Origin: Alcanivorax sp. DG881
Lineage (GTDB): Bacteria; Pseudomonadota; Gammaproteobacteria; Pseudomonadales; Alcanivoracaceae
Length of the DNA: 64,000 nucleotides
Reading direction: 5' to 3'
NCBI RefSeq assembly: GCF_000155615.1
Contig: NZ_DS989915.1
Location: forward strand, 475,119-539,118
Shown here: piece after piece, positions 10,679 to 34,979 of the stretch
Numbering within the stretch: the stretch's first letter is position 1
Layout: the number at the start of each line of letters is the position of its first letter
Position numbers and translations under genes: made by a program
Notes under the pieces: model-generated
Database searches by the model: none
Told to the model about the DNA's origin: nothing
Seen by the model: only the letters and a program-made list of their open reading frames with translations

Positions 10679-12067
10679 TTAACAGAAACGAGCGCTTCCC
10701 CAGCAGTTCCTCAAGGGCGCTTCCAAGCCCACAATATTCCCGTTTCTGGCATTTGCATTGCCTGCAATATTACTAACAAACGCCGTTGTTCTATCACTAA
10801 TGTCAAGTGTAAACGCATCAGGTGCATACATTGCCCAACCTACGGGGACAGAATTTGAATAACCAGGGTACTGTACATCTTCTTTTTGAAAGGACAAACC
10901 AAAAAGTGAGGAAGAGACGTCAAGTTGATGGACATTAGATAGATTATAAGGCAGTTGATAAGTATTGTTATCCAAAGATGCGACAGAAGTATTCAGGCCA
11001 GCAGCAAGCTGATTAATGATCTTTTGTTCCATCTGACCTTGGATTAGCCCTTTAATCAGATTGATTAGCCCAGACGGTAGGCCGCTTGAGCGTTCAATTG
11101 ATAAGGAGTCCACAATTGCTGCCACAGCACCTTCAACGCCACCATGAGTATTGCGACCAAGATTCAAATTGGAAATTAATGCCTGACTCCTTCTGTTCCC
11201 AAGTACGGATACCGGCGAATTTCTTGTCACTCCATCAAAACTAACCGTGAGATTGCGAAATTCCTCACATATAAAAAGCACGCAAGCCTCATCATTATCA
11301 AGCCCTAAAGATCTATCAGGTTCATTAAGGCCAAAAACGTTAACACCTGACCCTCCTAAACTACCAGGGCAGGGCCCCGTTAAAGGCCCACAGGTAACAG
11401 CCACATCCTGAGGGTTTCTTCCCCGCCCCTGCTCCTGTAGGTCAAGTTGAGCATTGCCACTCATAAAACCACTGAAAACATTCAGTGACCCAAAAGACAT
11501 CGGGCCTGAAACCTGTTCTCCCCCCATGCGAACGCCAACAACTTCACGCAGCGTCGTGCTGCTATCGTTCTTAATTGCAAACTGGAAAAAGGGTCTGTTG
11601 ATAATAAAATCTTTCAGTTGATCTTGAATGGTTTTGTCAATATTCGTACCTGTGCAAGTTCCATTCCCGCAGTCTCTCAAGAGGCCCGGCTTCTGAATAC
11701 TCCCTAAAACGGGATTCTGCGTAATGCATTGTCCACTGCTATTTGCGACACACCCCAGAGAAAAATTATCTATATCAAGGTCGCAACCATCTGTACCATT
11801 AATGCCTCCACAACCAAGCTGAAGCTTGTCAATGTTCATATTGAGCCTCAACTCTGCATCTAATCCCGCCTTATAAAAAGTATATCCATTTGTGAACTCT
11901 TTATTCATTTGCAGCAGAGCTTGCCCTGTCACATCAGCCAATTGCTCATCTTTAAGCTCAACCATAGCCTGCACGGCTTGCGAGAACAGTAAAAAAACAA
12001 GTGCAAAAAAGCAGCCAGAGGAATTTATCGGCAATAATCGGAAGCTGGATTTTATTTTAATTCTCAT
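10679..12067 (-). CDS. VTGQ-leader exported protein 4 (unknown function)
   Basis: Exported protein of 462 residues from the ATG at 12067; a TTG two codons earlier is also open. The signal peptide (hydrophobic core FFALVFLLFSQAVQA) is followed at once by VELKDEQLADVTGQALLQ, with Gly at residue 48. The same post-signal motif occurs in the three genes upstream and in filA. The body is rich in Asn, Ser and Gly with several Cys (LGCGGINGTDGCD). I recognise no enzyme domain; beta-rich surface structure is an inference. Last gene of a minus-strand group, 50 bp after its neighbour. Its DNA looks AT-richer than the flanks and it borders an IS remnant, consistent with transfer. Confidence 0.75.
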   Translation of the reverse strand: MRIKIKSSFRLLPINSSGCFFALVFLLFSQAVQAMVELKDEQLADVTGQALLQMNKEFTNGYTFYKAGLDAELRLNMNIDKLQLGCGGINGTDGCDLDIDNFSLGCVANSSGQCITQNPVLGSIQKPGLLRDCGNGTCTGTNIDKTIQDQLKDFIINRPFFQFAIKNDSSTTLREVVGVRMGGEQVSGPMSFGSLNVFSGFMSGNAQLDLQEQGRGRNPQDVAVTCGPLTGPCPGSLGGSGVNVFGLNEPDRSLGLDNDEACVLFICEEFRNLTVSFDGVTRNSPVSVLGNRRSQALISNLNLGRNTHGGVEGAVAAIVDSLSIERSSGLPSGLINLIKGLIQGQMEQKIINQLAAGLNTSVASLDNNTYQLPYNLSNVHQLDVSSSLFGLSFQKEDVQYPGYSNSVPVGWAMYAPDAFTLDISDRTTAFVSNIAGNANARNGNIVGLEAPLRNCWGSARFC

Positions 12068-12117
12068 TAGCAATACCCGAAGATGTTATTCTTAAAGGCC
12101 TTAGCCGATATTCGTAC

Positions 12118-14403
12118 TTATTGTTGTTCCAGTGTCAGTGAAGTATAAACTTTCGCAGCGGGAATAATCATGGAGCCCAGATCTTTACCGCCGAATTCGA
12201 TTCTTCCAATCTCAAGAGGATCACCAGCACCACCACCAGGCTTAGTCGCCAATGCTCCAATATTCAGATTGTTCTCAATGCGCAGTTTTGGCTTACCATC
12301 AGCTTCACCAGAAGCCGACAGGAGATCAATTTTCCCGCCCCCTCCGGCAAGAATGAAGTTAGAAGGAATTTCGATATCCCCCGTAATATCCGCTAAACGC
12401 ACATCTACATTTAATTTATTCAAATTGGGTTCAGCAAAGGAAATATAGGTGCCGTCATCATGGCCATGACCGCTACCCGTATCATTGGAAAAACCATTAT
12501 TAAGGTTTGCCAAGCTAAGGAAGCCGCCGAAGTTAATCGCATCCCCATTCAATGAAGGGAAAATCTTGAAAACGAATTCGTCCATTTCCAGGTTCATATC
12601 AATATAGCTACCGTAAACCGGAGACTCCATGCGAGGCACATCGCCTCCACCGAACATCCCGCGAAGCTGCAACCGTACTTCATTGGAAGAAAGATTCAGA
12701 CCATCACCAAGGGATACGCCGACTCCCATATCATTGGTGGCAAACAGTAAGTCAGCCCCCATCAGGCCAATGGCCAGGCCATCAGCAGTTGGGTTGCTCG
12801 GGTCGTGATAACTGGTCTGGAAGTCCGTATCACCGATCATCAGGTGGGTACCATTTTCCCAGCGGGAGCGATCCGGTCTCCCGTTGGCGTCAGCCCCGCC
12901 CTCTGTCTGGATGGCAGCAACCACATCCATGGTAAATCCGGGGGATCCTGGCGTGGCACCATCCCCTGACTGTGGGTAGAGGTACCAGTTGGTACTAATA
13001 TCGCCAAGGGTATAGATCAGAGCCCACCCTTCATCAATATTGTTTGCAGCTGAAACACCGTCGCGATAGACGACCTTGGAAGAATAGGCATGAAGACCCC
13101 ATTCACGATTTATAATCGCAAGCCCTGTGTCTGAAGGCGCAACATCCAGGAGTTCAGTGGGAAGCACCCCACCCGTTGAGCTTGCGCAAGCCGATGGGGT
13201 GCTACCGTAGGTGTTGGCACCACCGAAACAGATGCCCCCAACACTTTGATGAGCCGCGGAAACGGTATCCAGTGTTAGATAGCCGAACTCAAGATCCTTT
13301 CGATTCTGCCCCAAGGTCGTCGGCATACTGATGGGTTGTGTAAATTCCAGATATGACTGCCCCTCATCACCACTATCTTCATATCTGGCTTCGCCAAGAA
13401 CAAACTGGAAATTATCGGCTAGATCAAAACCCAGTGAAGCCGTTAGGCCTTGCGTGAATGTACCGTCATCCGGCAACCAAGCACCCTGAGGGCGCAGCTG
13501 CAAATCAAAGTCCTCGATACCACCGCGCCAGCCGAACAGGAGCATGGGGATTGACTGCTCATTGAACTGAAACGCCGTCGACGCTCCATTGGCAACATTG
13601 GCAAAAACATCAAAAGTGAGATTCAAGTCAGTCCGCGACCCCGGAGCGCTACTCACAACAATTCCGTCAGAGTTTACTCCCACCGTTCCCTGGTGCATGT
13701 CAAACAGGAAACCGAAGTTGTCCAGCTGCACCTCCGTACTCCCTGCCGGCCCCATTCGATAAAACAGACGGCCAGGCTGCCCCATGGTCCATGTATTCGG
13801 ATCCGGGTCGGTGTTATCAATATCCCCGACGTTAACGATCACCCTTGCCTGATCTGCACTGAGTGATGAGTTGGCAAACCCGCCGTCACCAAAAACGGCA
13901 AAACGCCCGCCCGCATCCAGGGCGACGGCCCCGAATGAACGTGATGTGTCTGTGACAGACAAGCTATCCATCTGCACACGCATCCGGTTCCAGGTCGCAT
14001 CAAGGCCCAGGCCAGACCGGCCCTCGTTATTGGTGTAGGAATCGATGGCCAATGCAAAATCTAACGCCTGGCTTGCAGCTGTGCCATCCAGATCAATCGG
14101 CTTGATCACAAACTGGTTTGCGTCGACGGCTGTACCACCAATGATCAGATGGTTCTGAAGTGAGTTGCTATTTGCATCAACTTCACCGTTATCCACTTCC
14201 CAGCGGATTTGTTCAGCTGTGATCGCGCCGCCTTGCGGTACTTCCAAGCCGATAGTCACACCGTCACGGCCTTGCACAGCGCCCATTTCTTGCTCAGAAA
14301 GAACTTCCAAGGCGTGAACGTTAGAAGAAATAAACAGCATTGCTGCAAAAACCGCGGGCGGCACGTGCGGCAGGTTGTTATTTTTTTCTGTCTTTGAACA
14401 CAT
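12118..14403 (-). CDS. VTGQ-leader exported protein 3 (large, unknown function)
   Basis: Exported protein of 761 residues from the ATG at 14403; an earlier in-frame start would overlap the upstream gene and bury the signal. The signal peptide (VFAAMLFISSNVHA) is followed by LEVLSEQEMGAVQGRDGVTI, with Gly at residue 45. The next stretch, GLEVPQGGAITAEQIRWEVD, opens a long repetitive, Gly/Asp/Asn-rich, beta-strand-like body with phrases such as GLGLDATWNRMRVQMDSLSV. The C-terminus is FGGKDLGSMIIPAAKVYTSL. No catalytic motif was seen. The pattern fits an outer-surface or fibre subunit, by inference. It begins 31 bp after protein 2. Confidence 0.78.
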   Translation of the reverse strand: MCSKTEKNNNLPHVPPAVFAAMLFISSNVHALEVLSEQEMGAVQGRDGVTIGLEVPQGGAITAEQIRWEVDNGEVDANSNSLQNHLIIGGTAVDANQFVIKPIDLDGTAASQALDFALAIDSYTNNEGRSGLGLDATWNRMRVQMDSLSVTDTSRSFGAVALDAGGRFAVFGDGGFANSSLSADQARVIVNVGDIDNTDPDPNTWTMGQPGRLFYRMGPAGSTEVQLDNFGFLFDMHQGTVGVNSDGIVVSSAPGSRTDLNLTFDVFANVANGASTAFQFNEQSIPMLLFGWRGGIEDFDLQLRPQGAWLPDDGTFTQGLTASLGFDLADNFQFVLGEARYEDSGDEGQSYLEFTQPISMPTTLGQNRKDLEFGYLTLDTVSAAHQSVGGICFGGANTYGSTPSACASSTGGVLPTELLDVAPSDTGLAIINREWGLHAYSSKVVYRDGVSAANNIDEGWALIYTLGDISTNWYLYPQSGDGATPGSPGFTMDVVAAIQTEGGADANGRPDRSRWENGTHLMIGDTDFQTSYHDPSNPTADGLAIGLMGADLLFATNDMGVGVSLGDGLNLSSNEVRLQLRGMFGGGDVPRMESPVYGSYIDMNLEMDEFVFKIFPSLNGDAINFGGFLSLANLNNGFSNDTGSGHGHDDGTYISFAEPNLNKLNVDVRLADITGDIEIPSNFILAGGGGKIDLLSASGEADGKPKLRIENNLNIGALATKPGGGAGDPLEIGRIEFGGKDLGSMIIPAAKVYTSLTLEQQ

Positions 14404-14434
14404 AGCAATCACCGTGTGGAAAGCAGATGCCGTC

Positions 14435-15187
14435 TTAATAACCGTAAAGATAAAAATCGCCACCAAACGCAATTCCTGCTTGGTGACCATTGTTATCCGC
14501 AATATTTAGGCCCATAAAGGAGCCATTATTGTTGCCTTCCCAACCATTGCCGCTTGGCACAAGCGCATTGGGTTCTACAGCCAGCCCCTCGAAGTACAGC
14601 CCGAAACGCACGTCATTGAACTCAAACCCATCAGCCGCGCCCTCTGGATAGCTCAAGCGAAGACCTGGCATCTCAGCCAATCCTGATGCTGCTGCTCCGG
14701 AACAATCCCCGCTGGGCAGTAAACAAGTAGAGCCATCCTGGTCGGTAAATTTAGCCTCATTGAAGTAACCATGATAAGCGGCACTGCCACCGTGGGAATC
14801 ACCCAACATGGATGCGTCAATTGCCAAACGCCGTAGATCAATTGACGCGTGACCGTTTTTAAAGACCAACCACTCGCTCTCGCGATTTTTCAATTGAAGG
14901 CCGAAGCGGCAATTCATATTTGCCAGGCTGCTACCACCATTAGGAGTATCACAAATAGACAGGGGGGCACCGAGATCGGCTTCCGCGGGACTACTGTTAT
15001 AGTAGTACTGAAAGCTCGCGAGAATCCCTTTCTGCCCTGTAACTGTACCCATCTCTGTATCATCCATGGCTTCCAGGGCCTGGGCGGGATTCGTGTGCAT
15101 GCACAACACCACGGCAAGGACAGCAAAAGCTGGGGGGGCTTTTTCAGGAAAAAGCTCACTCATGCGGAGGAAAAATGAACTGGTCAT
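14435..15187 (-). CDS. VTGQ-leader exported protein 2 (unknown function)
   Basis: Exported protein of 250 residues. The signal peptide (FAVLAVVLCMHTNPAQA) ends near residue 37 and is followed by LEAMDDTEMGTVTGQKGILA, with Gly51 in the motif. The ATG at 15187 overlaps the stop of protein 1 by one base (TAATG), so translational coupling is likely. The body is short, with the Tyr-rich FQYYYNSSP and a C-terminal AFGGDFYLYGY that could end in a beta-strand. No known domain. It lies second in the four-gene group. Confidence 0.75.
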   Translation of the reverse strand: MTSSFFLRMSELFPEKAPPAFAVLAVVLCMHTNPAQALEAMDDTEMGTVTGQKGILASFQYYYNSSPAEADLGAPLSICDTPNGGSSLANMNCRFGLQLKNRESEWLVFKNGHASIDLRRLAIDASMLGDSHGGSAAYHGYFNEAKFTDQDGSTCLLPSGDCSGAAASGLAEMPGLRLSYPEGAADGFEFNDVRFGLYFEGLAVEPNALVPSGNGWEGNNNGSFMGLNIADNNGHQAGIAFGGDFYLYGY

Positions 15188-16509
15188 TAATTGGCCCCCA
15201 ATGTGGTGATTTTCATGTGGTGAATGCGCATACCTTCGATGCGGGAGACCCCCAGATTGGTGACTGGGGTTGCGGCTGAAGGATTCACAAAATAAATACC
15301 GTTATCGGTTGCTGTAGCAGATGGAAGCCCAGCCCCTGTCGCAATATTGACACTATCAAAATTGCCCCAGCGCACGTAGCCACGGGTATCTTCGTTGGGG
15401 TTGGCAATGCTGCCATCTGAATTCAGGGCGCAATCCCCTGTGTTGCCGACATCGCCACAATAAAAATTGTTATAGACCTCGGGAATGTCAGGAATTCGGG
15501 TTAATTCAATAACGAAATCGCCAGTGGCGCTGCCGGAACCATCCCTCACAGCATCCAGCGTAAGAGCCTGGTAATGCAGAACGCCAAGTGGCAAGAAGGC
15601 ATCCACATTTTTGAAATACATACCTTCAGCATCATCAAAATCCGGAACATTATGAAGCGTATCGGCTAATGCACCGGTATCTTTTTGTCGAACAGAGAAA
15701 CGGAAGTCACCGGAAAGCGCGCTTTGGTAGGTAATACCCAAGGTATTATCGGCCGTATTTTCCGTTTGCATGAGCCGCAGGATGGCAGGTTTCCCATCCG
15801 CTGTTGTGGGTTTGCCATGAATGATCGTTTGGCTTTGCAGGAAGTCGGCACAGTCCGCCCCTCCCGACGAGCAGTTTGCTGCACCGATAGCTGCGCTAGG
15901 GTCACCGGCTACACGGTCTACCTCCAACTCGCCCCAGAAACTCCAGCGCCAATCTTCTGTTTGGCTGGGGCCAATCAACTCAAGAATCGTTGGCTTTTCA
16001 TTGCCTGCAGATCCGTCCAGGTAATTGCCTTGAAAATCGTACCCCTCGTAATCAAAAACACGCAGCACGTAAGGGTCATAGATTGAAGCCATGGCACCGA
16101 TGCCGTATTGGTTTGGCGTCACACCCGCCCCAAGACTATTGCCGTTACCTAGAGGGCAAGCAAGAAAGGTATTGCCATAGGCGCTGCTTCCACCGCAAGC
16201 GCTGGAGCCTCCATTAAGCGTGGCATACCAGTCCGTGCCGCCGGGCTGGGCCCCATTTGTCATGGACAACCCATAATAACGTGCGTCGCCTCGCTGCCAG
16301 CCAACACCATTCACCCCCGCACCAGTCAATTCAATAAAACTCTCCGGCGCAAATCGCATGCTGAAATTATCAAGCGCAAAGGCAAAGCCCGCCCCCTGCA
16401 CATCTGACAGAGAGTCATCACTGAGTTCAGTAAGGGCTTGCGCTTGAGCGGCGCCCAGAGTGAGGGTCGCAGCCAACAGCAGGTTGGTCGATTGGAGTCT
16501 TGGGCGCAC
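15187..16509 (-). CDS. VTGQ-leader exported protein 1 (unknown function)
   Basis: First gene of the group; 440 residues from a GTG at 16509 with GAGG five bases upstream. Signal peptide LLLAATLTLGAAQAQA, then LTELSDDSLSDVQGAGFAFA. This is the copy closest to a double-glycine leader, since the motif ends in Gly39-Ala40. The body is Gly/Asn/Asp-rich with several Cys, and includes WRWSFWGELEVDRV. Upstream lie two CTTTAGTCA direct repeats and a 10-mer shared with the filA upstream region. Function unknown; a surface structural role is inferred from the family. Confidence 0.77.
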   Translation of the reverse strand: MRPRLQSTNLLLAATLTLGAAQAQALTELSDDSLSDVQGAGFAFALDNFSMRFAPESFIELTGAGVNGVGWQRGDARYYGLSMTNGAQPGGTDWYATLNGGSSACGGSSAYGNTFLACPLGNGNSLGAGVTPNQYGIGAMASIYDPYVLRVFDYEGYDFQGNYLDGSAGNEKPTILELIGPSQTEDWRWSFWGELEVDRVAGDPSAAIGAANCSSGGADCADFLQSQTIIHGKPTTADGKPAILRLMQTENTADNTLGITYQSALSGDFRFSVRQKDTGALADTLHNVPDFDDAEGMYFKNVDAFLPLGVLHYQALTLDAVRDGSGSATGDFVIELTRIPDIPEVYNNFYCGDVGNTGDCALNSDGSIANPNEDTRGYVRWGNFDSVNIATGAGLPSATATDNGIYFVNPSAATPVTNLGVSRIEGMRIHHMKITTLGAN

Positions 16510-16949: not shown

Positions 16950-18434
16950 CTATTGCGCCAGCATTCCCATGAATTTATGCACAGGGACTGAGGCCAGCGA
17001 CTGCTGGCTTTTGCTGGCGTTGAGAATTTCCTCCGCTTTGGCTGGCGGGAAACGGGTCAGCAGATTCTGATGGAACTTGCTCTTCAGCACGGGCATGCCC
17101 TCCTCCCTGCGGCGTCGATGGCCTATGGGGTATTCCACCTCGGCAACATCCGTTTTTGTGCCGTCGCTGAAAAAAACCTGTATCGCATTGGCGATGGAGC
17201 GCTTTTCCGGGTCCAGGTAATCGCGGGTGTACTCTGCGCTTTCCACGATCTCCATTTTATTCCGCAGCGTGTCGATCATTGAATTCTTGGCGTGGAAGCC
17301 GTCTTCGTAGTGGTCGGCACTGAGGCCTCCCATGATCAAGGGCACGGCAATCATGTACTGCAGGCAATGGTCACGGTCCGCCGGGTTGGCGAGTGGTCCC
17401 TCTTTGGAAATGATGCGGATGGCTGACTCATGGGTGGTTACGACGATTTTTTCGATATCATCCAGGCGATTTTTTACCTCCAGATGCAGCAGTACCGCAG
17501 CCTCGCACGCCGTTTGCGCGTGGAACTCCGCCGGAAAGCGAATCTTGAAAAGGATGTTTTCCATCACGTAAGAGCCATAACCGCGCTGGAAGCTGAATTG
17601 GCGTTTCTCTTCCGGCTTGATGGCCTGGTCCTTGTTGGTCTTGCTGAACAGCACATCGTAGAAGCCCCATTGGGGGGCGGTGAGCGCTCCGGGAATTCCC
17701 ATTTCTCCACGAAGAGCAATATCCGCAAGGCGAACAGCCCGGCTGGTAGCGTCCCCTGCTGCCCAGGACTTTCGTGAGCCCGCATTGGGGGCATGGCGAT
17801 AAGTGCGCAAGGCCTGCCCGTCCACCCAGGCATGAGAGACCGCAGACAGCATCTGCTCCCGGTCGGCGCCCATGAGGTGCGACACAACAGCGGTAGATGC
17901 AACCTTGACCAGCAACACATGATCCAGCCCAACGCGGTTGAAGGAGTTTTCCAGCGCCAGCACGCCCTGAATTTCATGGGCCTTGATCATCGCTTCCAGA
18001 ACAGCCTTCATGGTCAAGGGCGGTTCACCGTTCGCTACCCGTTTTTGCGAGAGATAATCGGCTACCGCCAGAATCCCGCCCAGGTTATCCGATGGATGTC
18101 CCCACTCTGCAGCAAGCCAGGTATCGTTGTAATCCAGCCAGCGGATCATGCAGCCGATGTCCCAGGCCGCTTTTACGGGATCCAAACGATACGGAGTGCC
18201 GGGAACCCGAGCGCCATGAGGCACCATGGTGCCCTCCACTATCGGACCAAGATGTTTGGTACATTCCGGAAAGCGCAGGGCAAGGAACCCACAACCCAGG
18301 GTGTCGAGCAAGCAATAGTGCGCAGTTTGCCAAGCTTCTTCCGATTCGATGCGGTAATCGCGAACGTAGTCGACAATGTCTTGAATGACTTGGTCGTAAT
18401 CGGGTCGCAGATTCTGATCGGTATTGCTGGCCAT
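16950..18434 (-). CDS. prpD: 2-methylcitrate dehydratase
   Basis: PrpD/MmgE family, 494 residues, full length. It dehydrates 2-methylcitrate in propionyl-CoA degradation, although AcnD/PrpF usually replace it in this gene arrangement. Recognisable family stretches include [20 protein letters not shown] (about residues 76-95), [20 protein letters not shown] and [15 protein letters not shown]. The C-terminal domain has [20 protein letters not shown]. It is the last gene of the prp operon, separated from prpF by 244 bp containing REP elements, so its expression may be partly independent. Confidence 0.96.
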
Positions 18435-18530
18435 GGTAGACGCCTCCCTGGATAGGTTGGCTTTCAGGGTCTCCCCCGAAATGGCAGAGGGTCAAGCATT
18501 GAAGGAGGTTAACTAAACGGCTTTTACAGT

Positions 18531-18620
18531 TGTAGGTCGGGTTCACCCCAGGGCACAGAGAGGCAAAGCCGTAACCCGACAGTGGATTTGTCGGATTACG
18601 CCTTCAGGCTAATCTGACCT
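18531..18620. repeat. REP pair (class A) between prpF and prpD
   Basis: Unit 1 is TGTAGGTCGGGTT...AACCCGACA (18531-18581). Unit 2 is TGTCGGATTACGCCTTCAGG then CTAATCTGACCTA (18589-18620 or 18621). Each is palindromic, and unit 2 shares its core with the REP pair at 5535. Within the operon it could act as a processing or partial-termination site. The rest of the 18435-18678 gap holds only the shared 16-mer at 18620. Confidence 0.72.
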
Positions 18621-18635
18621 AGGGCCTGTTAACAC
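18620..18635. repeat. 16-bp dispersed repeat, copy 1
   Basis: TAGGGCCTGTTAACAC, found again in inverted orientation at 46711-46726. Both copies are intergenic and close to 3' ends. Confidence 0.5.
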
Positions 18636-18678
18636 TACCGAGATGAAGTGGCGTTAGCTGTGCTAAGGCACGCCTACA

Positions 18679-19857: not shown

Positions 19858-19923
19858 GTCTTGCTCCTTGGAGAAAAACCGGTGGCCATTGGCCAACGCC
19901 AATGCCCACCCTGCAGTTTCGTT

Positions 19924-22515: not shown

Positions 22516-22592
22516 AGCCTGGGGATCTCTTGTCTGGGTGCTTGAATGTGAACGAAGGAATGAATGCATTGACGCTGAATGCCAAACGCATA

Positions 22593-22619
22593 ATGCCTGA
22601 CGGGGTGAGCGTCAGGCAT
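22593..22619 (-). terminator. Hairpin downstream of prpC
   Basis: ATGCCTGAC (22593-22601) and GTCAGGCAT (22611-22619) form a perfect 9-bp stem between prpC and acnD. No U tract follows on the minus strand, so it is more likely a processing or stability element than a full terminator. Confidence 0.4.
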
Positions 22620-22622
22620 CAA

Positions 22623-22650
22623 GCGTCAGGCGCCAGGCGCCAGGCGCCAG
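22623..22650. repeat. Heptameric tandem repeat after prpC
   Basis: One GCGTCAG followed by three exact GCGCCAG copies, ending six bases before the prpC stop codon. Copy number could vary by slippage. The period matches the tracts at 1419 and 60162, though the sequence differs. Confidence 0.65.
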
Positions 22651-22656
22651 GCGTTA

Positions 22657-23802: not shown

Positions 23803-23935
23803 GATGTATCTCCTTTGAATCTTATTTCCGCCAATGCGGATTCTGTGCTGTAAGGGCACCACTCGGAGCGGGAACCGGCATGAGGAAATTCAAGACCCGG
23901 TTCGCACCTCAAGAGGGACTCCTACAAAATCGGTA

Positions 23936-24826: not shown

Positions 24827-24835
24827 GGCGTTCTC

Positions 24836-25635: not shown

Positions 25636-27600
25636 TCAAGGCGCCAGAGGATCGCAGCCACTGCCGGGGTCACCAGCGAAAAACTGGACGGCGCCCTGAG
25701 AAATAGCCACCAGCATCTCCTGCTCGTCCTCAGTGAGATCGCTCAGGTTATTGGTTTCATCGGGGTCAGCAGGCGCCGGCAACGCGGCAACCCACTCTTT
25801 CTGTTGAATGTACGGATAATAGCCATCCACCCAGAGCGCACGAAGGCCTTCATCGAAATTGTTATCACCAGTACGGTACATCGGCGTACAGGCATCATCC
25901 AGATCAACCCGCCCCTCAATGGTGACACCAAAGTTGGCGGTGACATCCGGTTGAGCAGCGTCTGGCGCCAACAACAGCGAGATATTGGCAGAGTTGGAAT
26001 CAGTCAGGGTGCGGGTAACAAAACCCACCGCCCAGCTATTGGCTGCGCTGTCCGGGCAAGAGCCATCCGCCGGGCCAGCCATGATCACACCGTAATCCGG
26101 GCTGGAGATATCGCTGATCACATCAAGGCAGAAAACGGCGCTGCCATAATAATCCGCACGGGGCTGCTCTTCTGTGACGCTTTTACTATTGATTTCCGGA
26201 GGGTAGTTACCACTGCCATCATCAGCCGTTTCAATATCCGGGTTGGGGATGGCGGTACAGTCTGCGGCATCATCCTGTGACAGACAGGCGCGCATCAACC
26301 GCACAGTAAACGGCCCAGCCAATGCCAGATCATCAATGATCGTTTGCTCTGGCTCCGCCTGGGGCGCTGCTTCCAGCTCACCGGACAGCGGCAGTTCAAC
26401 CGCATCGCCCACCAGGGTCCCGGTCAATTGTCCCTTGTCACCACTGGCCAGAGAAGACCCCAGGTTCGGATAATTCAGCTCGATATCCGTCTTGCCAACC
26501 CCATTTTCCGGCAAGAAATTATTGTAAACAATCTTGTTAAGGAAACGTCCCTGTACTGCAAGATCCGTATCGCCGTCAGGCTCAATGGATATCACGCCAG
26601 CATTTTCAAACTGCAGCTTTTCATTGACAGCCGCTGACGCTGTAAACGCCACCAGCTCCTGCTTGAAATCATCCTGCGATGCAGCCCGGGCAGCGAACCC
26701 GAGGCCCATTACCTTGCCGTTGGGCAGAATCAGCGGGGGCTGGCCAAGCGCAGTGTCATCGGTCAAGCGACCAGGCAAGTTGATGGTAACGGTGTCATTG
26801 GCAGCGGCAGAAGACGGATTTTCATCCTGGCAGGTAATAAAAATACAGGAGCGGAAACTGTAATTGCCTGCAGACGTATACCCATTAGCTCGCTCTACCT
26901 TGGCCAGGGGCACATTAGGGTCAGGGTCAATTCCGGCCAACGAGCCGGATGTCAATTGCGCATTAACCGCGACAAAGAAAGCGTCCCAATCATTGCGAAA
27001 ATCGGCGTACACAGCAGTATCAATCGCCTGTTCATAGGTCTCCGGATCATTGTCATAAACCTCATGAACGGCCACCGGGATTTCCACGAAGTCCGGTGTC
27101 GCCGAATCCACATCCAGACCCTGAATCAAGGCAGCCACATTGCGACTCTGAGCCTCAGAGGTCGCCTCCCGGAACGGTGAATTCTTCAGGTCAGCCACCG
27201 TGACGGCATAACGGGTATAGGCCTCCTGGCTGGGGAATTCGATACTCCCCAAAGACAGATAATTCCCTTCAAATAGAGCGTTACCAATCAGGAACTCAAC
27301 ACCTTGCGAGTTATTCGGGCACAGCGCATTGAACGCGGGCACCGTGACCACGTTACCGTTCGAATCAACCGATTCCTGATCCGCATCCGAAGTAAAGAAC
27401 ACCACATTGGTACCGGTACAGGTGTACCCCAGATTGCTGACATGGGGGCCCGCCAACTCAACCAGCACATCCCCGCGCGAAGAGGGATCACACCCTGCCC
27501 CGGCCGGACACCCGGGCACGGTCGCATCGGAAAAGTCTTCGCCGCCATTACACCCGGCTAGCGCAAGAGAGAGCGTGGTCAGGACAAAAAGAAATCGCAT
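25636..27600 (-). CDS. filF: FilF-like lipoprotein
   Basis: Large predicted lipoprotein of 654 residues. The lipobox LALAGC places the lipidated Cys at residue 17, and the ATG at 27600 has AGGAAA upstream. No enzyme motif was seen; the sequence is rich in Asp, Asn and Pro with scattered Cys. Position last in the A-B-C-D-E-F order, size and lipobox match the Acinetobacter protein named FilF as I recall it, so the symbol rests on context more than on sequence. Likely an outer-membrane lipoprotein of the surface system. The terminator-like hairpin at 25535-25572 follows. Confidence 0.75.
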   Translation of the reverse strand: MRFLFVLTTLSLALAGCNGGEDFSDATVPGCPAGAGCDPSSRGDVLVELAGPHVSNLGYTCTGTNVVFFTSDADQESVDSNGNVVTVPAFNALCPNNSQGVEFLIGNALFEGNYLSLGSIEFPSQEAYTRYAVTVADLKNSPFREATSEAQSRNVAALIQGLDVDSATPDFVEIPVAVHEVYDNDPETYEQAIDTAVYADFRNDWDAFFVAVNAQLTSGSLAGIDPDPNVPLAKVERANGYTSAGNYSFRSCIFITCQDENPSSAAANDTVTINLPGRLTDDTALGQPPLILPNGKVMGLGFAARAASQDDFKQELVAFTASAAVNEKLQFENAGVISIEPDGDTDLAVQGRFLNKIVYNNFLPENGVGKTDIELNYPNLGSSLASGDKGQLTGTLVGDAVELPLSGELEAAPQAEPEQTIIDDLALAGPFTVRLMRACLSQDDAADCTAIPNPDIETADDGSGNYPPEINSKSVTEEQPRADYYGSAVFCLDVISDISSPDYGVIMAGPADGSCPDSAANSWAVGFVTRTLTDSNSANISLLLAPDAAQPDVTANFGVTIEGRVDLDDACTPMYRTGDNNFDEGLRALWVDGYYPYIQQKEWVAALPAPADPDETNNLSDLTEDEQEMLVAISQGAVQFFAGDPGSGCDPLAP

Positions 27601-27640: not shown

Positions 27641-28528
27641 CTAGGGGGCGGTCAGAACCAACTCACCTTCCGTCACCTGCTTCAACCCGTCGGTGCCAGG
27701 GCGGCTTTCAAAATAAGGAAGAAAAACAACCAGATAGTATTGACCCGGCTCCCTTTCAACGGTTCCCTGCAAGTAGCCGTAGCGGTACCAGGTTTCCGGG
27801 TACTTACGGCTGAACGGCTGGTCTACAAGCATGACCGGCAAGCCATCCTTGTCCAGCCAGAGCAACTCAACAGCGAGATAGCCCTCCTTGCGAATAAACG
27901 CCATCAGCGATACGCGGCTTACCTCATCAGGGAATGAATAAATTCTTGCCCGATAAGCGGATTCTCCCACCAGAACGGGCGTGTCTGCCCCAAAAGCCAG
28001 TAGCGCTTCCTTGCCGGATTCCAGGGTTTGCGCCTCTGCAAGCAAATGCTGGCAACAATCTGCCCGCAGCGCACGATAGGTTTCCAGGTAAGCATCGGCA
28101 TCCAGGGTTTCATAGGGCGCGGGTGCCGAACTGGCGGCCTCTCGTTCAGCCCCCATGTCCAGAGGGCGACTCACCAACTGGCCTGTTTCATCCACATAAC
28201 TGATGAAACGGTCGTTCTCGCGGGCCTCCAGCTCCTGGTCCACCTCGACACTGGGGCGGTAGTCTTCCACAGACTCGCGATCAGAAGAACCCCTGTTCGG
28301 CGTTTTCTGACTGGAGGCAGAATCGGCGGCCTCAGTCGAGTCGTTTGCTGCACCGGTCTTGCCTGACGCGGCCGGCCGCTCAAGGGTGACCAGATTTCCC
28401 TGTGCATCCATGTAAACGTACAGCCCTCCCTCTCCCGCTGCGCGCTGAGGCTGACTTTGACTGATGCTTTGCCCCTGGCTCTGGCAGCCGGTCGCCAGTG
28501 CCACAAGCAGCAAGATCGACAGGCGCAT
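27641..28528 (-). CDS. filE: FilE-like lipoprotein
   Basis: Predicted lipoprotein of 295 residues with lipobox ALATGC (Cys15). The ATG at 28528 overlaps the filD stop by one base (TGATG), implying coupling. After the lipid anchor comes a Gln/Ser-rich linker, then GEGGLYVYMDAQGNLVTLER. A similar phrase, RFISYVDETGQLVSRPL, recurs near residue 110, so the N-terminal half may contain a short repeated beta motif. The C-terminal half (about 145-295) looks like one globular domain. FilE in Acinetobacter is annotated as a pilus assembly protein; the function here is inferred from order. Confidence 0.75.
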   Translation of the reverse strand: MRLSILLLVALATGCQSQGQSISQSQPQRAAGEGGLYVYMDAQGNLVTLERPAASGKTGAANDSTEAADSASSQKTPNRGSSDRESVEDYRPSVEVDQELEARENDRFISYVDETGQLVSRPLDMGAEREAASSAPAPYETLDADAYLETYRALRADCCQHLLAEAQTLESGKEALLAFGADTPVLVGESAYRARIYSFPDEVSRVSLMAFIRKEGYLAVELLWLDKDGLPVMLVDQPFSRKYPETWYRYGYLQGTVEREPGQYYLVVFLPYFESRPGTDGLKQVTEGELVLTAP

Positions 28529-30195
28529 CAAAACTTGGTTCTGAATGCCAGGCCGACCATCATGATCCTGGCTTCGGTTTTGATATCCAGCCCGGCATAG
28601 GGGTTGTAGACCACATTGTCGATGCCGGTACAGTTAGCCGCACAGCTGGTATCCGCAGGAATTTCATCCTTGCTGTGCAGCATGCCGATACCCAAATCAA
28701 TGTCGGTATCCTTGTCCCATTTGTAGCCCATCCCCAGGCTGTAATAGCGCGCCTCGTTGATCGGCACCATGGGGCTACGGCGATCTTCAGGAATCGCCGA
28801 AGCACGGGGCTCATACCCTGCGCGCAGCTGGATACGGCCGGTCAGGTCATAGGCGGCACCAAAGGCAAGGTTCCAGGTGGACTGGAAATTCAGCGGATAA
28901 CTCAATTGTGTAGACGTGGACCCGGGCGAAAACAGACGCGCCAGGCTCAGCACCGCCGAACTACGGTCGAAGACGATATTGAACGCATCCCATTCCTTGT
29001 AGTCTGCCCAAACCGCATCCACATTGAACTGCAAGCGCTCGGTGGGCTTGATCTTGATGCCGGTCTGGAAGGTGGCCGGCATGGTTAGATCCATACTCAC
29101 CGCCCCAACTTCTTCACTACCAATCCGTGAGGGAATCCCCAATACCGCCAACGCCAATGCCCCCGTAGCAGAGCTGCCGATACCGTTAACGGTTTCCTGG
29201 GTCGCATTGGAATAGGAGATCTTGTAATCCCCTTTCATGTGCGTCTTCGCTTCAGAGCGCCACACCGCCCCCCAGGCAAACCGATCGTTCGGCTCCCACA
29301 ACACGCCGAGGTTATAGGACGGGCTGAATCGCTGATCCATGGAGACTTCCAGCGAAGCCAGATTCTTGAAAGGCCCCAGTCCTTCATCCGGATTACAGAT
29401 CCCGAATAAAATCAGATCCAGTGCAATATTGGACTCACCAGCAAAGGGCGCACAAATACTCTCGTCGATCACCCGGGCAAAACCCAATAATTCATTGGGC
29501 GCACGAAAATCCTGCTCCAGGGCAATAGCCTGGTAACTCATGCCAATGGATGCACCAATGGAAAGCTCGTCATTCACCTGGTAAGCCACCGAGGGAGACA
29601 GGTAAGTAATACGCTCCAGGGCAACCCGCTCACCCATGTAGTTACCCACATCATCTTCATCACGGTAAAAACCTGCCGCCATGGGCAAATATGTAGCCGT
29701 ACCGAAGGTAAACTTAGACCCCGCAGGACGAATGGAAAATGCGGGCAAAGGCCCAGCAATCAAAGGCCCAGGCGGCAAATCCACGGTATCGTTGATGAAA
29801 GGAATATACAGAGAGATCCCCTCCACCGAGCTGGTTGCAGTCTTAAAATTGCGGCAGAAGTCCACACCATCGTCCGGCACATCATCACAGACCACGGGAT
29901 CATCGGAAAAACCAAAGACATTGTAATCTGGTGGCGCAGAGAATTCAGATTCCAGAGAGAAATCGGCGCCGACAAATTGCAGATCCACACGCCGACCGTC
30001 CAGCCGAGCCAGGCCCGCCGGGTTAAAGTGGATGGACATGACCCCAGGCGGATCCGCAGTGACAGCATGGCCCATACTCATTGCCTTCACATCAATAGCA
30101 AGGTTGTTGGCTAACTGCGCATGGGCAGAAACGGCCAAAAGCCCTGCCACCAGGACGAGAATACGCACGCCGAGCCCTTTATTCTTGTTGTTCAT
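28528..30195 (-). CDS. filD: FadL/OmpP1-type outer-membrane barrel (FilD-like)
   Basis: 555 residues from the ATG at 30195, with AGGGG upstream. The signal peptide ILVLVAGLLAVSAHA is followed by QLANNLAIDVKAMSMGHAVT and MSIHFNPAGLARLDG, the typical N-terminus of the OmpP1/FadL/TodX family, whose members move hydrophobic molecules across the outer membrane. It is longer than FadL (about 450). The C-terminus ends in an aromatic residue (FRTKF), as expected of a Bam substrate. It starts 30 bp after the filC stop. In this locus it could be the export channel or a hydrophobic-ligand porin. Confidence 0.85.
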   Translation of the reverse strand: MNNKNKGLGVRILVLVAGLLAVSAHAQLANNLAIDVKAMSMGHAVTADPPGVMSIHFNPAGLARLDGRRVDLQFVGADFSLESEFSAPPDYNVFGFSDDPVVCDDVPDDGVDFCRNFKTATSSVEGISLYIPFINDTVDLPPGPLIAGPLPAFSIRPAGSKFTFGTATYLPMAAGFYRDEDDVGNYMGERVALERITYLSPSVAYQVNDELSIGASIGMSYQAIALEQDFRAPNELLGFARVIDESICAPFAGESNIALDLILFGICNPDEGLGPFKNLASLEVSMDQRFSPSYNLGVLWEPNDRFAWGAVWRSEAKTHMKGDYKISYSNATQETVNGIGSSATGALALAVLGIPSRIGSEEVGAVSMDLTMPATFQTGIKIKPTERLQFNVDAVWADYKEWDAFNIVFDRSSAVLSLARLFSPGSTSTQLSYPLNFQSTWNLAFGAAYDLTGRIQLRAGYEPRASAIPEDRRSPMVPINEARYYSLGMGYKWDKDTDIDLGIGMLHSKDEIPADTSCAANCTGIDNVVYNPYAGLDIKTEARIMMVGLAFRTKF

Positions 30196-30225
30196 GGCTA
30201 GCCCCTTCCAACTGCTTATCACGGC

Positions 30226-31236
30226 TTATGCCCCGGGTTTCAGGCCTGAAAAATCAATCGGCAAAGAAAGTCCAAGCAGCACATCAGGGGAGTCTTCCGT
30301 CAAACCAAACCCGAAACTCAGGTTGACGATGCGATTACTGGAAGTCCGAAGCCCCAACGAGGTATTGATGACACTGGAGGTGGAGTCTTCCGATGCCGCC
30401 GTATAATCCTCGAAAAGAAAATTGGTTTCGAAATTATACGACTGCTGATAGCTCGCACTCAGAGACACCTCATAGGACAACGAATACGCCAGCCCCATGG
30501 AAAAGTTAACGCTGTCGCCAGGTTGTACTTCATTGAGAATCTCGCCGCCCCGGTTTTGATTAAGGCCAGATGCATCGAATGCATAGGTGTAACCCAGCGA
30601 ACCAAACAACACGACCGGATCGATCACCTTACTGGCACTGACCCCTGCCCCAACGGAGTAATAACCAGAGCCGCTGGACACCTCTTCATTCACATTAATG
30701 TCATAGGGGCTATCGCCAGTAGGCGTGCTCAACGTCGTATACAGAGTCGTATTCATGGCCCCCGGTTTTACCGGGAAGGGCTGATAGCGCAGGCTGAAAG
30801 ACACATCCCCCAGTGCAGCCTGGGAGACATCTTTCTGCGTGTCATATTTGTAGGATACGGGCAGGCGCGTGTTGAACGTCAGGTTATTCCAGATACCGTA
30901 ATCCAGCGACAGCGCTGAAGAGAATGCATGCTGCGCATCCTGCTCAATACGAAAACGGCTGATGTTGCCGGTATTTTCGTCAATGGCAATATCGATGCGG
31001 TCATCACGGTAGTAGTTGTAATTGGCCGAAAAATTCAGCGACATTTCGCCACTGGGAAGCAGTGAGTATTGCTTCTCCGCCGCCTGGAAGACCTCTTCCA
31101 GGTTTTTTTCCTGGGTCACGTCCTCGTCAGTGGTCTGCAGGGCTTCTCGGGCTTCGTCAACCTCGGCAGCCCAGGCAACATGGTGCGCCAACAAGAGTGC
31201 GGCCATTGCTGCCACCTTCCCAGACATCATTTTCAT
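30226..31236 (-). CDS. filC: FilC-like outer-membrane protein
   Basis: 336 residues with signal peptide MAALLLAHHVAWA and AAGGAAGG before the ATG at 31236. After a short charged helix (VDEAREALQTTDEDVTQEKN) the sequence alternates polar and aromatic residues in beta-hairpin fashion, for example SLNFSANYNYYRDDRIDIAI. A small outer-membrane barrel is likely, though the C-terminus (DFSGLKPGA) lacks the usual final aromatic. The function is not known. It sits between the C39 peptidase and the FadL-type barrel, matching FilC by order. Confidence 0.75.
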   Translation of the reverse strand: MKMMSGKVAAMAALLLAHHVAWAAEVDEAREALQTTDEDVTQEKNLEEVFQAAEKQYSLLPSGEMSLNFSANYNYYRDDRIDIAIDENTGNISRFRIEQDAQHAFSSALSLDYGIWNNLTFNTRLPVSYKYDTQKDVSQAALGDVSFSLRYQPFPVKPGAMNTTLYTTLSTPTGDSPYDINVNEEVSSGSGYYSVGAGVSASKVIDPVVLFGSLGYTYAFDASGLNQNRGGEILNEVQPGDSVNFSMGLAYSLSYEVSLSASYQQSYNFETNFLFEDYTAASEDSTSSVINTSLGLRTSSNRIVNLSFGFGLTEDSPDVLLGLSLPIDFSGLKPGA

Positions 31237-31280
31237 GCAAGCCTTCCTTTATTATGTTTGTTATACGCCACTGCAGGCTG

Positions 31281-32090
31281 TTATTGGCGGAAGTAGGTTC
31301 GTGTCGGCACGTTGATGACCCGTTTATCCCCGTCATCCTCTGTGATCTGAACCCGGGTTAGCGTGCTGGCTTTATCAGCCCAGTTTTCAATCGGTGCGGT
31401 AAACACCGGAAATACATCAAACGCCAGACGATTAATCGTCCGCTCATCAAGTAAGCGTAGATCATAATCGGTGAGTTCAAGCCCATCCTGAGGCTCAAAA
31501 CCGTTCGGGAACACGATAAACAGGACGTTCTGGTCCCAGACTTCCTGGAATTTCGCTTCAGTAAAACTGATATTTCCCAACGCCGGATCCGCCACATAAA
31601 TATGACCATCCTGGTACTTTTTGAGCACGACGAAGTGTTTGAAGCCACCGTAGGCAATCGGAACAATAGCCGGGTGATCAAGAGACTGAATGTCGGACAT
31701 TTCCGCCCGAAAACCACCACTGGGGTGGCCCAGTGCCGTGGCCAGACGCTTCATGTCGAGCAGAGAGAAACCGCGGCGCTCCACGATCTTGTCGGTTTCA
31801 CCAAAGCGCAGCAGGCCTTCCATAATCTGGCGCTCCTGGAACTGTCGTCCCAGGTACTGGTTGAGCACGGTGGTCAACGCTGCCGAGCCACAGGAGTAGT
31901 CATACGCCTGTCGCGTCACGTTGTGGTAGCGGAACTCGGATACCGGTTTCACCACGAGATTACGCTCGCGTAAGGACACCGGTTGAGTCGGGTGTTCATA
32001 GTAGATTTCGCCCTTCTGCGGGGGCTTGATCACTACAGCCTCATTGGCGGCGAAGTAAATAAGCGCCACACCCAGCATGGAAGTCAGCAT
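31281..32090 (-). CDS. filB: C39-family cysteine peptidase (FilB-like)
   Basis: 269 residues with an N-terminal hydrophobic anchor or signal (MLTSMLGVALIYFAANEAVV), so the catalytic domain should face the periplasm. The peptidase C39 signature is complete: oxyanion Gln61 and nucleophile Cys67 in QAYDYSCGSAA, His152 in GGFKHFVVL, and Asp168 in VADPALG. No ABC transporter or membrane domain is fused, unlike bacteriocin exporters. C39 peptidases classically cut after double-glycine leaders, and five exported proteins in this window carry a related motif. The start has no strong Shine-Dalgarno, but a stop codon immediately precedes it. It is 44 bp upstream of filC. Confidence 0.87.
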   Translation of the reverse strand: MLTSMLGVALIYFAANEAVVIKPPQKGEIYYEHPTQPVSLRERNLVVKPVSEFRYHNVTRQAYDYSCGSAALTTVLNQYLGRQFQERQIMEGLLRFGETDKIVERRGFSLLDMKRLATALGHPSGGFRAEMSDIQSLDHPAIVPIAYGGFKHFVVLKKYQDGHIYVADPALGNISFTEAKFQEVWDQNVLFIVFPNGFEPQDGLELTDYDLRLLDERTINRLAFDVFPVFTAPIENWADKASTLTRVQITEDDGDKRVINVPTRTYFRQ

Positions 32091-32410: not shown

Positions 32411-34000
32411 TTATACGGACAAGTCATAGCCATACCGCTCGGCCGCTTCGCGGAAGTGCGGCAACACCGGCTCCATCCATTTGCCGTAATGGCGCCAGCG
32501 TTCACGGGAGGTGCTGTAGATTTTTTGGGTCACACCCTGGTAACTGGGTGTGGCCAGGGTGCCACGGGCCTTTGCATGCTCGTCATAGCGACTAATAGAC
32601 TCGCTCCATTCCAAACCCATGAAATGCAAGATCTTGCTAGTCTCGCCCTCGAAGTCGTCAAGTAAGTCCTCATAACGAACGTAATGCATTCGGTCATCCA
32701 ACTGGAAGACCTCCTGATACTGCCAGAGCAGTTTCATGACATGCTTATAGAAGCTCGCGCCACTCTCCAGATCGAGGAAATTAGCCATTCCTTCATTCAT
32801 TTCGAACGTCTGCATAAAGCCACTAAGGACACAATCACAGGGGTGCCGCAGTGCCACAACAAACTTGGCATCCGGAAACAAGCGTAAAATAATGCCGATG
32901 TCTACCGTATTAAGCGGCATCTTATCTACCAGTACCGTATTTTCCTGAAAATTCACTTCCTGCCTGGCCACACGAAAGTATGTTTCTCGTAGCATGGCAA
33001 TCTGCTCGTCACCTAACTCCCCCATAAAGTTAAAAACATCCATCCATTGTTGCTTCCATCCTGCACCACGAGGAGCCTGACTCGACATGGAGGCTTTGGC
33101 CTGCATCCAGGTAATCGCCTGACGCATTACGGTAGAAACGGTTGGCGGCTCTTCCATGGCTTGGATCGACTCATGGGCATCGAGCATTTGCTCAAGCAAG
33201 GTCGTACCGGAACGGGGGAAGCCCAAAAGAAACACCGGCGTCCGTGAAGCCGGCGCAACAGGTTGCCAGGTGCTTAACCATCCCGGGGTAAAAAGCGATT
33301 TGAAAACTTCAATACGGCGACGAACTGCATTTGTGCTTGTCTCAATGCCTTCCAGCCGTGTCTGCAGCCCATTGCCTTTCGTTAGCGCAGAAAAAGCTTC
33401 CTCATACCGCCCTTTCTTATCCAGCGCTCTTGCAAGAACCTTCCATATACTCGCGACATAACGATCTTGCGAGGCTGTTTCCAGCCAAGGAGGCAACACA
33501 GCGATAACGTTTTCATAGCGTTTCTGCTGAGAGAGAATATTCACCTTGAGTAACCACATTCTGGTTTCAGCGCTCTTTTCCGCAAGCGCGTCAAGCTCTG
33601 CCAAACATGCCAAGGCTTCATCCGGACGAAATAGCCGCTCCAGCGCTTCCGCTTTCGCCAAGTAGTGCTCAGCGTTAATTGAAGGACTTAACTTAGCGAT
33701 TTTGTTGAGTGATTTCAGCGCTTGTGCCCAGTGTGCATCCGCATGGTGGGCCTGATAACTGAGCTGCCAGCTTCGCCAATTCTTTGGCGCCATCTTGACC
33801 GCAAGCTCTGCCAGTGTTTTCGCCAGCGGAATATTGTTTCCTTCTCGGGCCAAGCGTGCACATAAATCTGCCGCATCGTAGTCCACATAACCCTTTTCCA
33901 TAAAACCCATGACTATGCGACTGGCGTCCTGATACTTTCCTTTTTTACACAGCCCTTGAACCAATGGACGTAACTGCTTTGCACTAACTGATTGATTCAT
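32411..34000 (-). CDS. TPR-repeat sulfotransferase
   Basis: 529 residues. About the first 240 are helical TPR-like repeats, and about 255-529 is a PAPS-dependent sulfotransferase. The 5'-phosphosulfate loop is FLLGFPRSGTTLLE (P-loop 260-268) and the 3'-phosphate region includes VVALRHPCDCVLSGF with the conserved Arg and Ser. YVRYEDLLDDFEG is another family motif. No signal peptide, so it is cytoplasmic. The acceptor is unknown; a sulfated glycan, lipid or protein is possible. It interrupts the fil gene order between filA and filB on the same strand, so a role in modifying the surface system is possible but unproven. Confidence 0.85.
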   Translation of the reverse strand: MNQSVSAKQLRPLVQGLCKKGKYQDASRIVMGFMEKGYVDYDAADLCARLAREGNNIPLAKTLAELAVKMAPKNWRSWQLSYQAHHADAHWAQALKSLNKIAKLSPSINAEHYLAKAEALERLFRPDEALACLAELDALAEKSAETRMWLLKVNILSQQKRYENVIAVLPPWLETASQDRYVASIWKVLARALDKKGRYEEAFSALTKGNGLQTRLEGIETSTNAVRRRIEVFKSLFTPGWLSTWQPVAPASRTPVFLLGFPRSGTTLLEQMLDAHESIQAMEEPPTVSTVMRQAITWMQAKASMSSQAPRGAGWKQQWMDVFNFMGELGDEQIAMLRETYFRVARQEVNFQENTVLVDKMPLNTVDIGIILRLFPDAKFVVALRHPCDCVLSGFMQTFEMNEGMANFLDLESGASFYKHVMKLLWQYQEVFQLDDRMHYVRYEDLLDDFEGETSKILHFMGLEWSESISRYDEHAKARGTLATPSYQGVTQKIYSTSRERWRHYGKWMEPVLPHFREAAERYGYDLSV

Positions 34001-34040
34001 AAATAGATCAACGATTTTTCAAAACACAACACGATTTTTC

Positions 34041-34079: not shown

Positions 34080-34124
34080 CCTCCAGTACCACATTTGAGC
34101 CTTAAGCGTCACAAAATGGACGAC

Positions 34125-34979
34125 TTAGTGACCGGCAATGGTGATAGCCGTATTGCTCAAATCCAAGCCGGTAACATACACGTTACCAATCGAGTCAGCT
34201 GTACCCAACTGAACACCCATGGCGGCAACTTCGACGCCAGTCAACGCGCCATTGGTGTTAATAACCAGGCCGCTGGTTGTGACCTGGCCGGTAATGCCAT
34301 CAACATCCAGGTTATTGAGAGCCAGTTGATCCACGGAAAGCGCACCACCACCGGCCGCATCGTTCAGCGTCAGGTTATCAGAACCATCGGCCAAGGTACC
34401 GATTTCAATGCTCAGCACAGAGGTAGTTGAAATGGCAAACAGGTTGCTCGCCTCTGAGCCCAGCTGCAAAGAGAGCTCAAGATCATTCAGCGTAATGCTA
34501 ACACTTTCGAGAATAGGATCAGAAAAGGCAGAAGCCTGCACCGCGGTCAGCTCAGTTCCCACCTTCGCAATACCTGCTGCAACTGCACTACCATCGCCAG
34601 GAACAACATCGGTACCATCTGTACCTTGACCGACATACAGATCACCAGTGTCAACAGTTAATTCATCCGCTTGAATGCTTACTTGCAGAACACCACCACC
34701 TGAGCCGCTGCTGGCAGAGTCGATAACAAGATTCAGGTCGCCGTTACCGGTGCTTAGGCCCATGTTCTCAATCAGGATCATGCCCTCACCGGTATTGCCA
34801 GCAAAGCCATCGGTATCTTCAATACCCACGTTCAGAGTGGCATTCAGGTTCAAACCAATGGAAATACCATCCTGACCCGTCACGCTGGACAGCGCGTCAT
34901 CCTGCATCGGCTCGAGAGCCAGGGCGCTCATCGGCGCGACGGCTACAGCGGCAGCCAGAGCAAGTTTCTTGAAATTCAT
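34125..34979 (-). CDS. filA: FilA-like exported protein with VTGQ leader
   Basis: 284 residues from the ATG at 34979, with GAGGAG seven bases upstream. A textbook signal peptide (LALAAAVAVAPMSALA) is followed by LEPMQDDALSSVTGQDGISI, with Gly35 in the motif. The body is a low-complexity, Gly/Ser/Asp/Leu-rich sequence resembling stacked beta-strands (ALSVDQLALNNLDVDGI). No Cys and no enzyme motif. Probably the major secreted or surface subunit of the fil system; the name follows the Acinetobacter family by motif and position. Its own terminator follows, and a complex repeat-rich region precedes it. Confidence 0.82.
   Translation of the reverse strand: MNFKKLALAAAVAVAPMSALALEPMQDDALSSVTGQDGISIGLNLNATLNVGIEDTDGFAGNTGEGMILIENMGLSTGNGDLNLVIDSASSGSGGGVLQVSIQADELTVDTGDLYVGQGTDGTDVVPGDGSAVAAGIAKVGTELTAVQASAFSDPILESVSITLNDLELSLQLGSEASNLFAISTTSVLSIEIGTLADGSDNLTLNDAAGGGALSVDQLALNNLDVDGITGQVTTSGLVINTNGALTGVEVAAMGVQLGTADSIGNVYVTGLDLSNTAITIAGH

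Follow-up and report, generated by a model that had tools for sequence, protein, structure and literature searches.

Five Sec-exported proteins encoded in a 64,000-nucleotide stretch of Alcanivorax sp. DG881 DNA (contig NZ_DS989915.1; "the window" below means this whole stretch) share a short motif directly behind the signal peptide. Four of them come from a gene quartet, and the fifth is FilA, the Fil fimbrial subunit precursor. Very probably, the motif is a cleavable leader of the C39 type, placed in tandem behind the Sec signal, cut by the stand-alone C39 peptidase FilB, and followed by exit through the outer-membrane barrel FilC. What we observed is the register of the motif, the gene neighborhood, the kept catalytic residues of FilB, the co-occurrence of motif and enzyme, and a solved protein chain that begins at the predicted site.

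The five motif strings are all present in the window, every gene lies on the minus strand, and each motif stands directly behind an AxA-type site of a signal peptide, as judged by eye. This confirms what a sequence-only reading of the window had claimed; the order in which that reading gave the motifs was permuted relative to the genes. In filA (34125..34979), the leader LEPMQDDALSSVTGQ (34872..34916) has its predicted cut after Gln36, and a fold model of the protein places a low-confidence helix at residues 27-34 and a beta body from residue 39. The quartet genes lie at 15187..16509 (440 amino acids [aa]; leader LTELSDDSLSDVQGA, 16390..16434), 14435..15187 (250 aa; leader LEAMDDTEMGTVTGQ, 15032..15076), 12118..14502 (leader LEVLSEQEMGAVQGR, 14266..14310; an open reading frame [ORF] of 794 aa from the first start and 761 aa from the likelier Met), and 10679..12073 (464 aa; leader MVELKDEQLADVTGQ, string (M)VELKDEQLADVTGQ, 11921..11965). 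All five carry, straight after the Sec-type signal peptide, a 15-residue C39 register with hydrophobic residues at -15, -12, -7, and -4 and Gly at -2. The residue at -1 is not Gly but Gln (three leaders), Arg, or Ala, the replacements of the second Gly that had been reported, and the bodies behind the leaders have no mutual match at E up to 1, in agreement with their described dissimilarity. The register is carried by 5 of the 31 window ORFs with a signal-peptide-like run, against 0.04 in shuffled sequence, with a pattern that was written after the five had been seen. The leader region lies inside the Pfam family DUF6160 (PF19657), for which the five proteins score 51.3 (FilA), 34.6, 26.9, 21, and 14.9 bits; two of the five pass the cut-off of 27.

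The register fits the C39 recognition rule given for leader positions -4, -7, and -12 (PMC10885120), and the fil operon encodes a C39 peptidase, which supports the earlier idea of a double-glycine-like processing or sorting tag. The published description of double-glycine leaders is L(-12)xxxE(-8)L(-7)...G(-2)G(-1), helical between -10 and -4 (PMC6959990). The likeness to such leaders and to the peptidase-containing ATP-binding cassette (ABC) transporters (PCAT1, ComA, LahT) covers the register -12/-8/-7/-4/-2, the helix from -10 to -4, and the C39 fold and catalytic residues. The differences are that FilB is without an ABC part, that the enzyme is expected in the periplasm, that the leader stands behind a Sec signal, that the cargo reaches ~760 aa, and that Gln takes the place of Gly at -1. 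A classical leader is the N terminus itself, without Sec signal and with C39-ABC export, whereas here a signal peptide precedes the leader and the peptidase stands alone. The tag puts the C39 leader principle to use in a new form and outside the inner membrane.

The same features recur in a broader set of 111 leaders, which was obtained from 120 unique pattern matches minus 6 filtered ones and minus 3 false ones among the remaining 114 (the filtered matches include loci L099, L118, and L158, dropped by hand, one of which also has a true leader). Hydrophobic residues stand at -15, -12, -7, and -4, Glu or Ala is often found at -8, and Gly, rarely Ala, occupies -2. Gln is at -1 in 102 of the 111 leaders and Gly at -2 in 109, a position where the selection had demanded Gly or Ala. 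For 21 scattered leader proteins from three genomes, the information is 2.2-4.1 bits at -15, -12, -10, -8, -7, -4, -2, and -1, compared with 1.4 bits at +1 and no more than 1.1 at the positions beyond; several positions were fixed by the selecting pattern, and -16, -13, -8, and -6, which were not, hold 2.1-3.7 bits.

Removal of the leader at the predicted bond is supported by a solved chain. Chain A of PDB entry 9xfv, a pilus-like structure from a karst cave, is a relative of FilA, and it starts, as residue 38, exactly behind the predicted bond. As solved, this FilA-type pilus chain lacks the motif, in favor of the sequence-only reading, which a motif retained at mature N termini would have refuted. 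The title and molecule name of the entry give no family, and our literature search found no paper on 9xfv, which appears to be a FilA-family fiber subunit.

The proposed leader peptidase is encoded by filB (31281..32090, minus strand), and the proposed exit pore, a FilC/FapF-type outer-membrane beta-barrel, by the adjoining filC (30226..31236, minus strand). FilB has an N-terminal hydrophobic segment and matches the C39 peptidase family PF03412 with 69.8 bits (cut-off 22). Its residues Q61, C67, H152, and D168 are invariant in the aligned FilB proteins (36/36), and the Gln, Cys, His, and Asp are retained in 68 of 68 aligned relatives. Two C39 matches above cut-off exist in the genome, FilB and a 337-aa lipoprotein-like protein in locus L014. 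The window genes match the FilA, FilB, FilC, and FilD models of the NCBIfam "putative pilus system" FilA-FilF, all below the respective cut-offs: FilA with 124 of 220 bits (NF050077), FilB with 302 of 475, FilC with 361 of 630, and FilD with 776 of 970. Going by these scores, we regard the four proteins as akin to the models and not as members. The entry names of DUF6160 and FilA-FilF give no hint of a leader or of cleavage. Acinetobacter sp. Tol 5 is known to have Fil fimbriae, and Edman degradation served to identify its FilA bands (PMC3498257).

When the complete 3.8-Mb genome was searched with DUF6160 (E up to 10), nine matches were returned, the five of the window and four in a second cluster (G000:C2:2313-2319 kb; L013:5018-10840). 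Each gene of the window quartet has one paralog in this second quartet, with 27-35% identity: the genes at 15187..16509, 14435..15187, 12118..14502, and 10679..12073 correspond to L013:9185-10840, 8505-9176, 5018-7171, and 7181-8503, respectively. One protein of the second quartet has Ala at -2 and an Ala-Arg ending, the sole such case among the nine, which represent five unrelated kinds of protein. Our own leader profile retrieved the same nine plus one match on a signal peptide only, with 21 of 39 candidates scored.

The tag and FilB occur together across genomes. In a class sample of 362 genomes, the six that have DUF6160 (E up to 0.01) are also the six that have FilB (>200 bits), and the next-best C39 protein scores 137 bits. 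In an order sample of 254 genomes, DUF6160 was found in 36, FilB (>=174 bits) in 35, and both in 35, the next C39 score being 125 bits. Both FilB thresholds were chosen at score gaps after seeing the lists, and the samples overlap in at least G000, G006, and G145. The lone case of a tag without FilB, G410 (L256), turned out to be a false one: its DUF6160 match is below cut-off and is another exported protein that has no leader. The sequence-only reading would have been weakened by a tag equally frequent in genomes lacking fil genes; apart from this false match, the tag is absent where FilB is absent in both samples. Within families, as far as the listed genomes go, presence or absence concerns both elements at once. 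In family f1, both are missing from four genomes of genus g271 and present in seven others; f3 includes five genomes with both and four with neither (G145, G488, G547, and G585, the last three having a weaker C39 protein); in f184, nine have both, and G378, with a weaker C39 protein, has neither.

A profile built from 49 leaders gave at least 63 leader-reaching matches in the six FilB genomes (9, 7, 5, 17, 4, and 21, of which 17 and 21 are lower bounds with at most 21 candidates scored per genome) and 4 in the other 356; the leaders of the six were in the profile, making their matches partly a product of construction, and the 356 others are the actual test. Of the four matches outside FilB genomes, the one in G154 is a leader that ends in Ala-Gly and adjoins another periplasmic C39 peptidase. 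The association is also more than operon linkage. Of the 47 DUF6160 matches in the class sample, only 9 share the contig of filB at a distance of up to 20 kb, and the other 38 lie elsewhere. G121, G221, and G008 have no DUF6160 match near filB; their tagged proteins, spread over many contigs in G121 and G221 and over two contigs in G008, are on other contigs or >20 kb from filB, in open frames of 101-272 aa. In these three genomes, filB and filC together make up a small core, and in G008 they are separated by an OmpA-like gene. There, the FilC-type barrel has an N-terminal OmpA-like domain and is preceded by the OmpA-like gene (L073:8865-10860), an arrangement that could anchor the pore to the wall. 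G008 also has four small leader proteins in a row (L077:2676-4256), three with Cys-containing tails, possibly secreted peptides. In G187, a gene between a leader protein and filB (L072:1766-2482) begins in a leader-like way (LEYLSDEELSQHDG) but lacks the usual ending, and the filA of L086 has a leader that ends in Gly-Arg.

The Fap system of Pseudomonas offers the closest parallel, since both Fap and Fil pair a FapF/FilC-type barrel with a stand-alone C39 peptidase that is exported by Sec; FilB matches the FapD model with 120 bits, and FilC the FapF model with 76 bits, below the curated cut-off. None of 10 window genes scanned matched the FapB or FapC families. The FapD mutation C38A abolishes FapC secretion (PMC5557850). 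According to the same 2017 study, Fap proteins are without canonical C39 sequences and the target of FapD is unclear; mass spectrometry (MS) peptides were reported throughout FapA-D, with no processing, whereas the first ~70 residues of FapE (UK4) gave no peptides (PMC5557850). This gap agrees with processing of FapE but does not fix the site, and it extends beyond the site that we predict at about residue 39 in L216. Another source describes the FapD substrate as yet to be determined (PMC6173800), and a 2025 review states that FapD is thought to process the FapE N terminus and the periplasmic part of FapF (PMC12822426). We considered FapF as a general target of periplasmic C39 peptidases and rejected it, as a leader-like linker stretch was found in only 1 of 11 FapF-like ORFs.

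Leaders were found beside FapD-type enzymes as well. We fetched 60 loci of the 76 weaker C39 matches listed and placed the C39 gene in 57 (all but L215, L246, and L250). The leader pattern occurs in 49 of 184 same-strand exported ORFs within 2.5 kb of the C39 gene, a count that includes ambiguous FapB-type repeat matches (GNALSGVTGA-INVN...), dropped from later labeling; among the remaining exported ORFs at these loci, it occurs in 9 of 228 (Fisher, 4e-11; shuffling the near set gave a mean of 5 and a maximum of 11 in 200 rounds). A Gly-Gly ending alone also differs (21/184 versus 6/228; Fisher, 5e-4). With this first pattern 36 of 57 loci were positive; a second rule, written after the first labeling had mis-picked loci (e.g., L227, L210, and L212), finds a leader-bearing neighbor in 49 of 57, so that this number and the clade counts below are partly post hoc. 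The leaders stand behind a signal peptide, as in Fil. In the latter, the leader directly follows the signal peptide, mostly ends in Gly-Gln, and is carried by the fiber subunit and many scattered proteins, whereas the leader of Fap-type loci is set deeper in the protein, belongs to FapE-like proteins, and has Gly-Arg/Lys or Gly-Gly as its ending. The leader LKDQELATLRGR of the L216 FapE precedes YVMPGR, with the predicted site at about residue 39; this was the one leader-bearing neighbor on which the formal family test was run, and it matches NF058559 with 346 bits (cut-off 250). Comparable leaders precede FYVN in L206 (VSNQELDQLRGG) and FITS in L210 (LDDDTLDTLRGG). Locus L225 (5988-10873) contains the FapD-type gene and its neighbors twice in tandem, in near-identical sequence.

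When 73 C39 proteins are arranged in a tree, the ending of the leader goes with the enzyme, with 13 changes compared with 41 in shuffles and 0 of 200 shuffles as low. The FapD clade has leaders ending in GR or GK in 20 of 20 loci, a small clade has AG in 4 of 4, and a third clade (28) has 19 GG, 3 GR/GK, 1 GA, and 5 without leader; the FilB labels (GQ, 16) were assigned from DUF6160 leaders in general and not per locus. The AG clade consists of L213, L233, L242, and L255 (an example being LTDADMDSITAG), and L213 has three small leader proteins in a row.

These elements suggest the following mechanism. The Sec system and signal peptidase I, a standard step, would bring the precursor to the periplasm and leave the 15-16-residue leader as its new N terminus. 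FilB, as a stand-alone periplasmic C39 cysteine peptidase, would bind the leader helix through the hydrophobic residues at -12, -7, and -4 and cleave after Gly-Gln (or Gly-Arg/Gly-Ala). The freed protein would then cross the outer membrane, most likely through the adjoining FapF-like barrel FilC, and FilA would assemble into Fil fimbriae. The same route may be open to the remaining eight tagged proteins that the genome encodes. That FilB does the cutting is suggested by kinship to FapD, gene order, and co-occurrence; the same arguments, with kinship to FapF, point to FilC as the pore for tagged proteins. Cutting could also gate export.

Several points weigh against this mechanism. In FilA (DG[IV]) and some quartet genes, conservation of the form [DK]G[IV] continues past the site, and the motif may thus in part have a role in the mature protein. 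Published work describes a narrow C39 cleft with specificity for Gly-Gly (PMC6959990), whereas the tags mostly end in Gln. The 9xfv chain may hold modelled residues only, in which case a disordered leader could still be present. Some leader-profile match at E up to 0.01 is found in 45 of 362 genomes; outside FilB genomes all but four cover the signal peptide only or little more. Owing to the relatedness of the genomes, fewer cases are independent than the Fisher values imply, and common descent could account for the link between FilB and its clients; likewise, label clustering on the tree is also expected from operon co-inheritance. Finally, filB lies 1-6 kb from a contig end in G008, G121, and G221, and part of its surroundings is unseen.

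Among the alternatives, the one that survives best, though we consider it rather improbable, is that the leader serves for docking to FilC or to a chaperone, its removal being mere clean-up after export. The adjoining of filB and filC and the very different cargo that carries the tag are compatible with this, but the leader has the C39 contact residues, and the block of Fap secretion in the FapD active-site mutant suggests that there cutting precedes export (PMC5557850). It is quite unlikely that the segment is a retained N-terminal module (a beta-fold cap, an anchor, or a donor strand), shared by common descent as DUF6160 and left uncut. Pfam does treat the segment as a homologous domain, the second quartet is paralogous, and DG[IV] is conserved after the site in FilA; against this, the 9xfv chain begins behind the segment, the bodies behind it are unrelated, conservation falls after -1 in the scattered set (which was partly picked by pattern), and presence of the segment tracks FilB. 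We give just as little credence to a cut by another protease, with FilB only binding the leader in the manner of the catalytically dead C39-like domains of type I secretion. Such inactive domains exist (PMC5557850), but the catalytic residues are retained in 36/36 FilB proteins and 68/68 relatives, the C38A change in FapD abolishes FapC secretion (PMC5557850), and the register is that of C39 leaders. A likeness to double-glycine leaders by mere chance, conceivable for a short motif picked by eye, has a negligible probability given 5 cases found against 0.04 expected and at least 63 matches in six FilB genomes against 4 in 356 without FilB.

Cleavage of the leader by FilB, followed by exit through FilC, may be one instance of a wider scheme, and here we lean, with some reserve, toward a general two-gene secretion pathway. 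A periplasmic C39 peptidase and a FapF/FilC-type barrel would serve clients encoded as a Sec signal followed by a C39 leader and possibly scattered over the genome (at least 17 and at least 21 in two genomes). The endings Gly-Gln, Gly-Arg/Lys, Gly-Gly, and Ala-Gly would be read by at least four enzyme clades, and FapE would be the FapD substrate, cut before Tyr or Phe.

The remaining genes of the fil operon, all on the minus strand, are filD (28528..30222), encoding a FadL-type outer-membrane protein, a lipoprotein-like gene at the filE position (27641..28531) with no trustworthy family match, and a gene at the filF position (25636..27600) without NCBIfam match; in locus L071, the gene at the filF place matches FilF with 68 bits (cut-off 390). 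A gene for a tetratricopeptide repeat (TPR) sulfotransferase (32411..34000, minus strand) lies between filA and filB, and its product could modify a surface product. The region between the quartet and the fil operon (16950-25534) holds what we take to be a 2-methylcitrate (propionate) cluster with a GntR-type regulator, and a short ORF just beyond the quartet (10142-10492) is presumably, by its look, a piece of an IS3-type transposase.

Beyond the sequence-only reading, our analysis adds the peptidase, a second gene quartet, numerous tagged proteins in other genomes, and a parallel logic at Fap-type loci. Among the matches listed for the open-licence PMC literature, we found no description of the leader, of DUF6160 function, or of FilB substrates; the sole paper found with the word DUF6160 merely lists the name. 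Ever since FapD proved necessary for Fap secretion, the target of stand-alone periplasmic C39 peptidases has been an open question, and a leader of fixed register on FilA, on the other tagged proteins, and on FapE makes this question testable. If our proposal is true, DUF6160 would gain a function, a solved pilus without family would be named as a Fil-type fiber, and secreted proteins would become predictable from sequence in many gammaproteobacteria.
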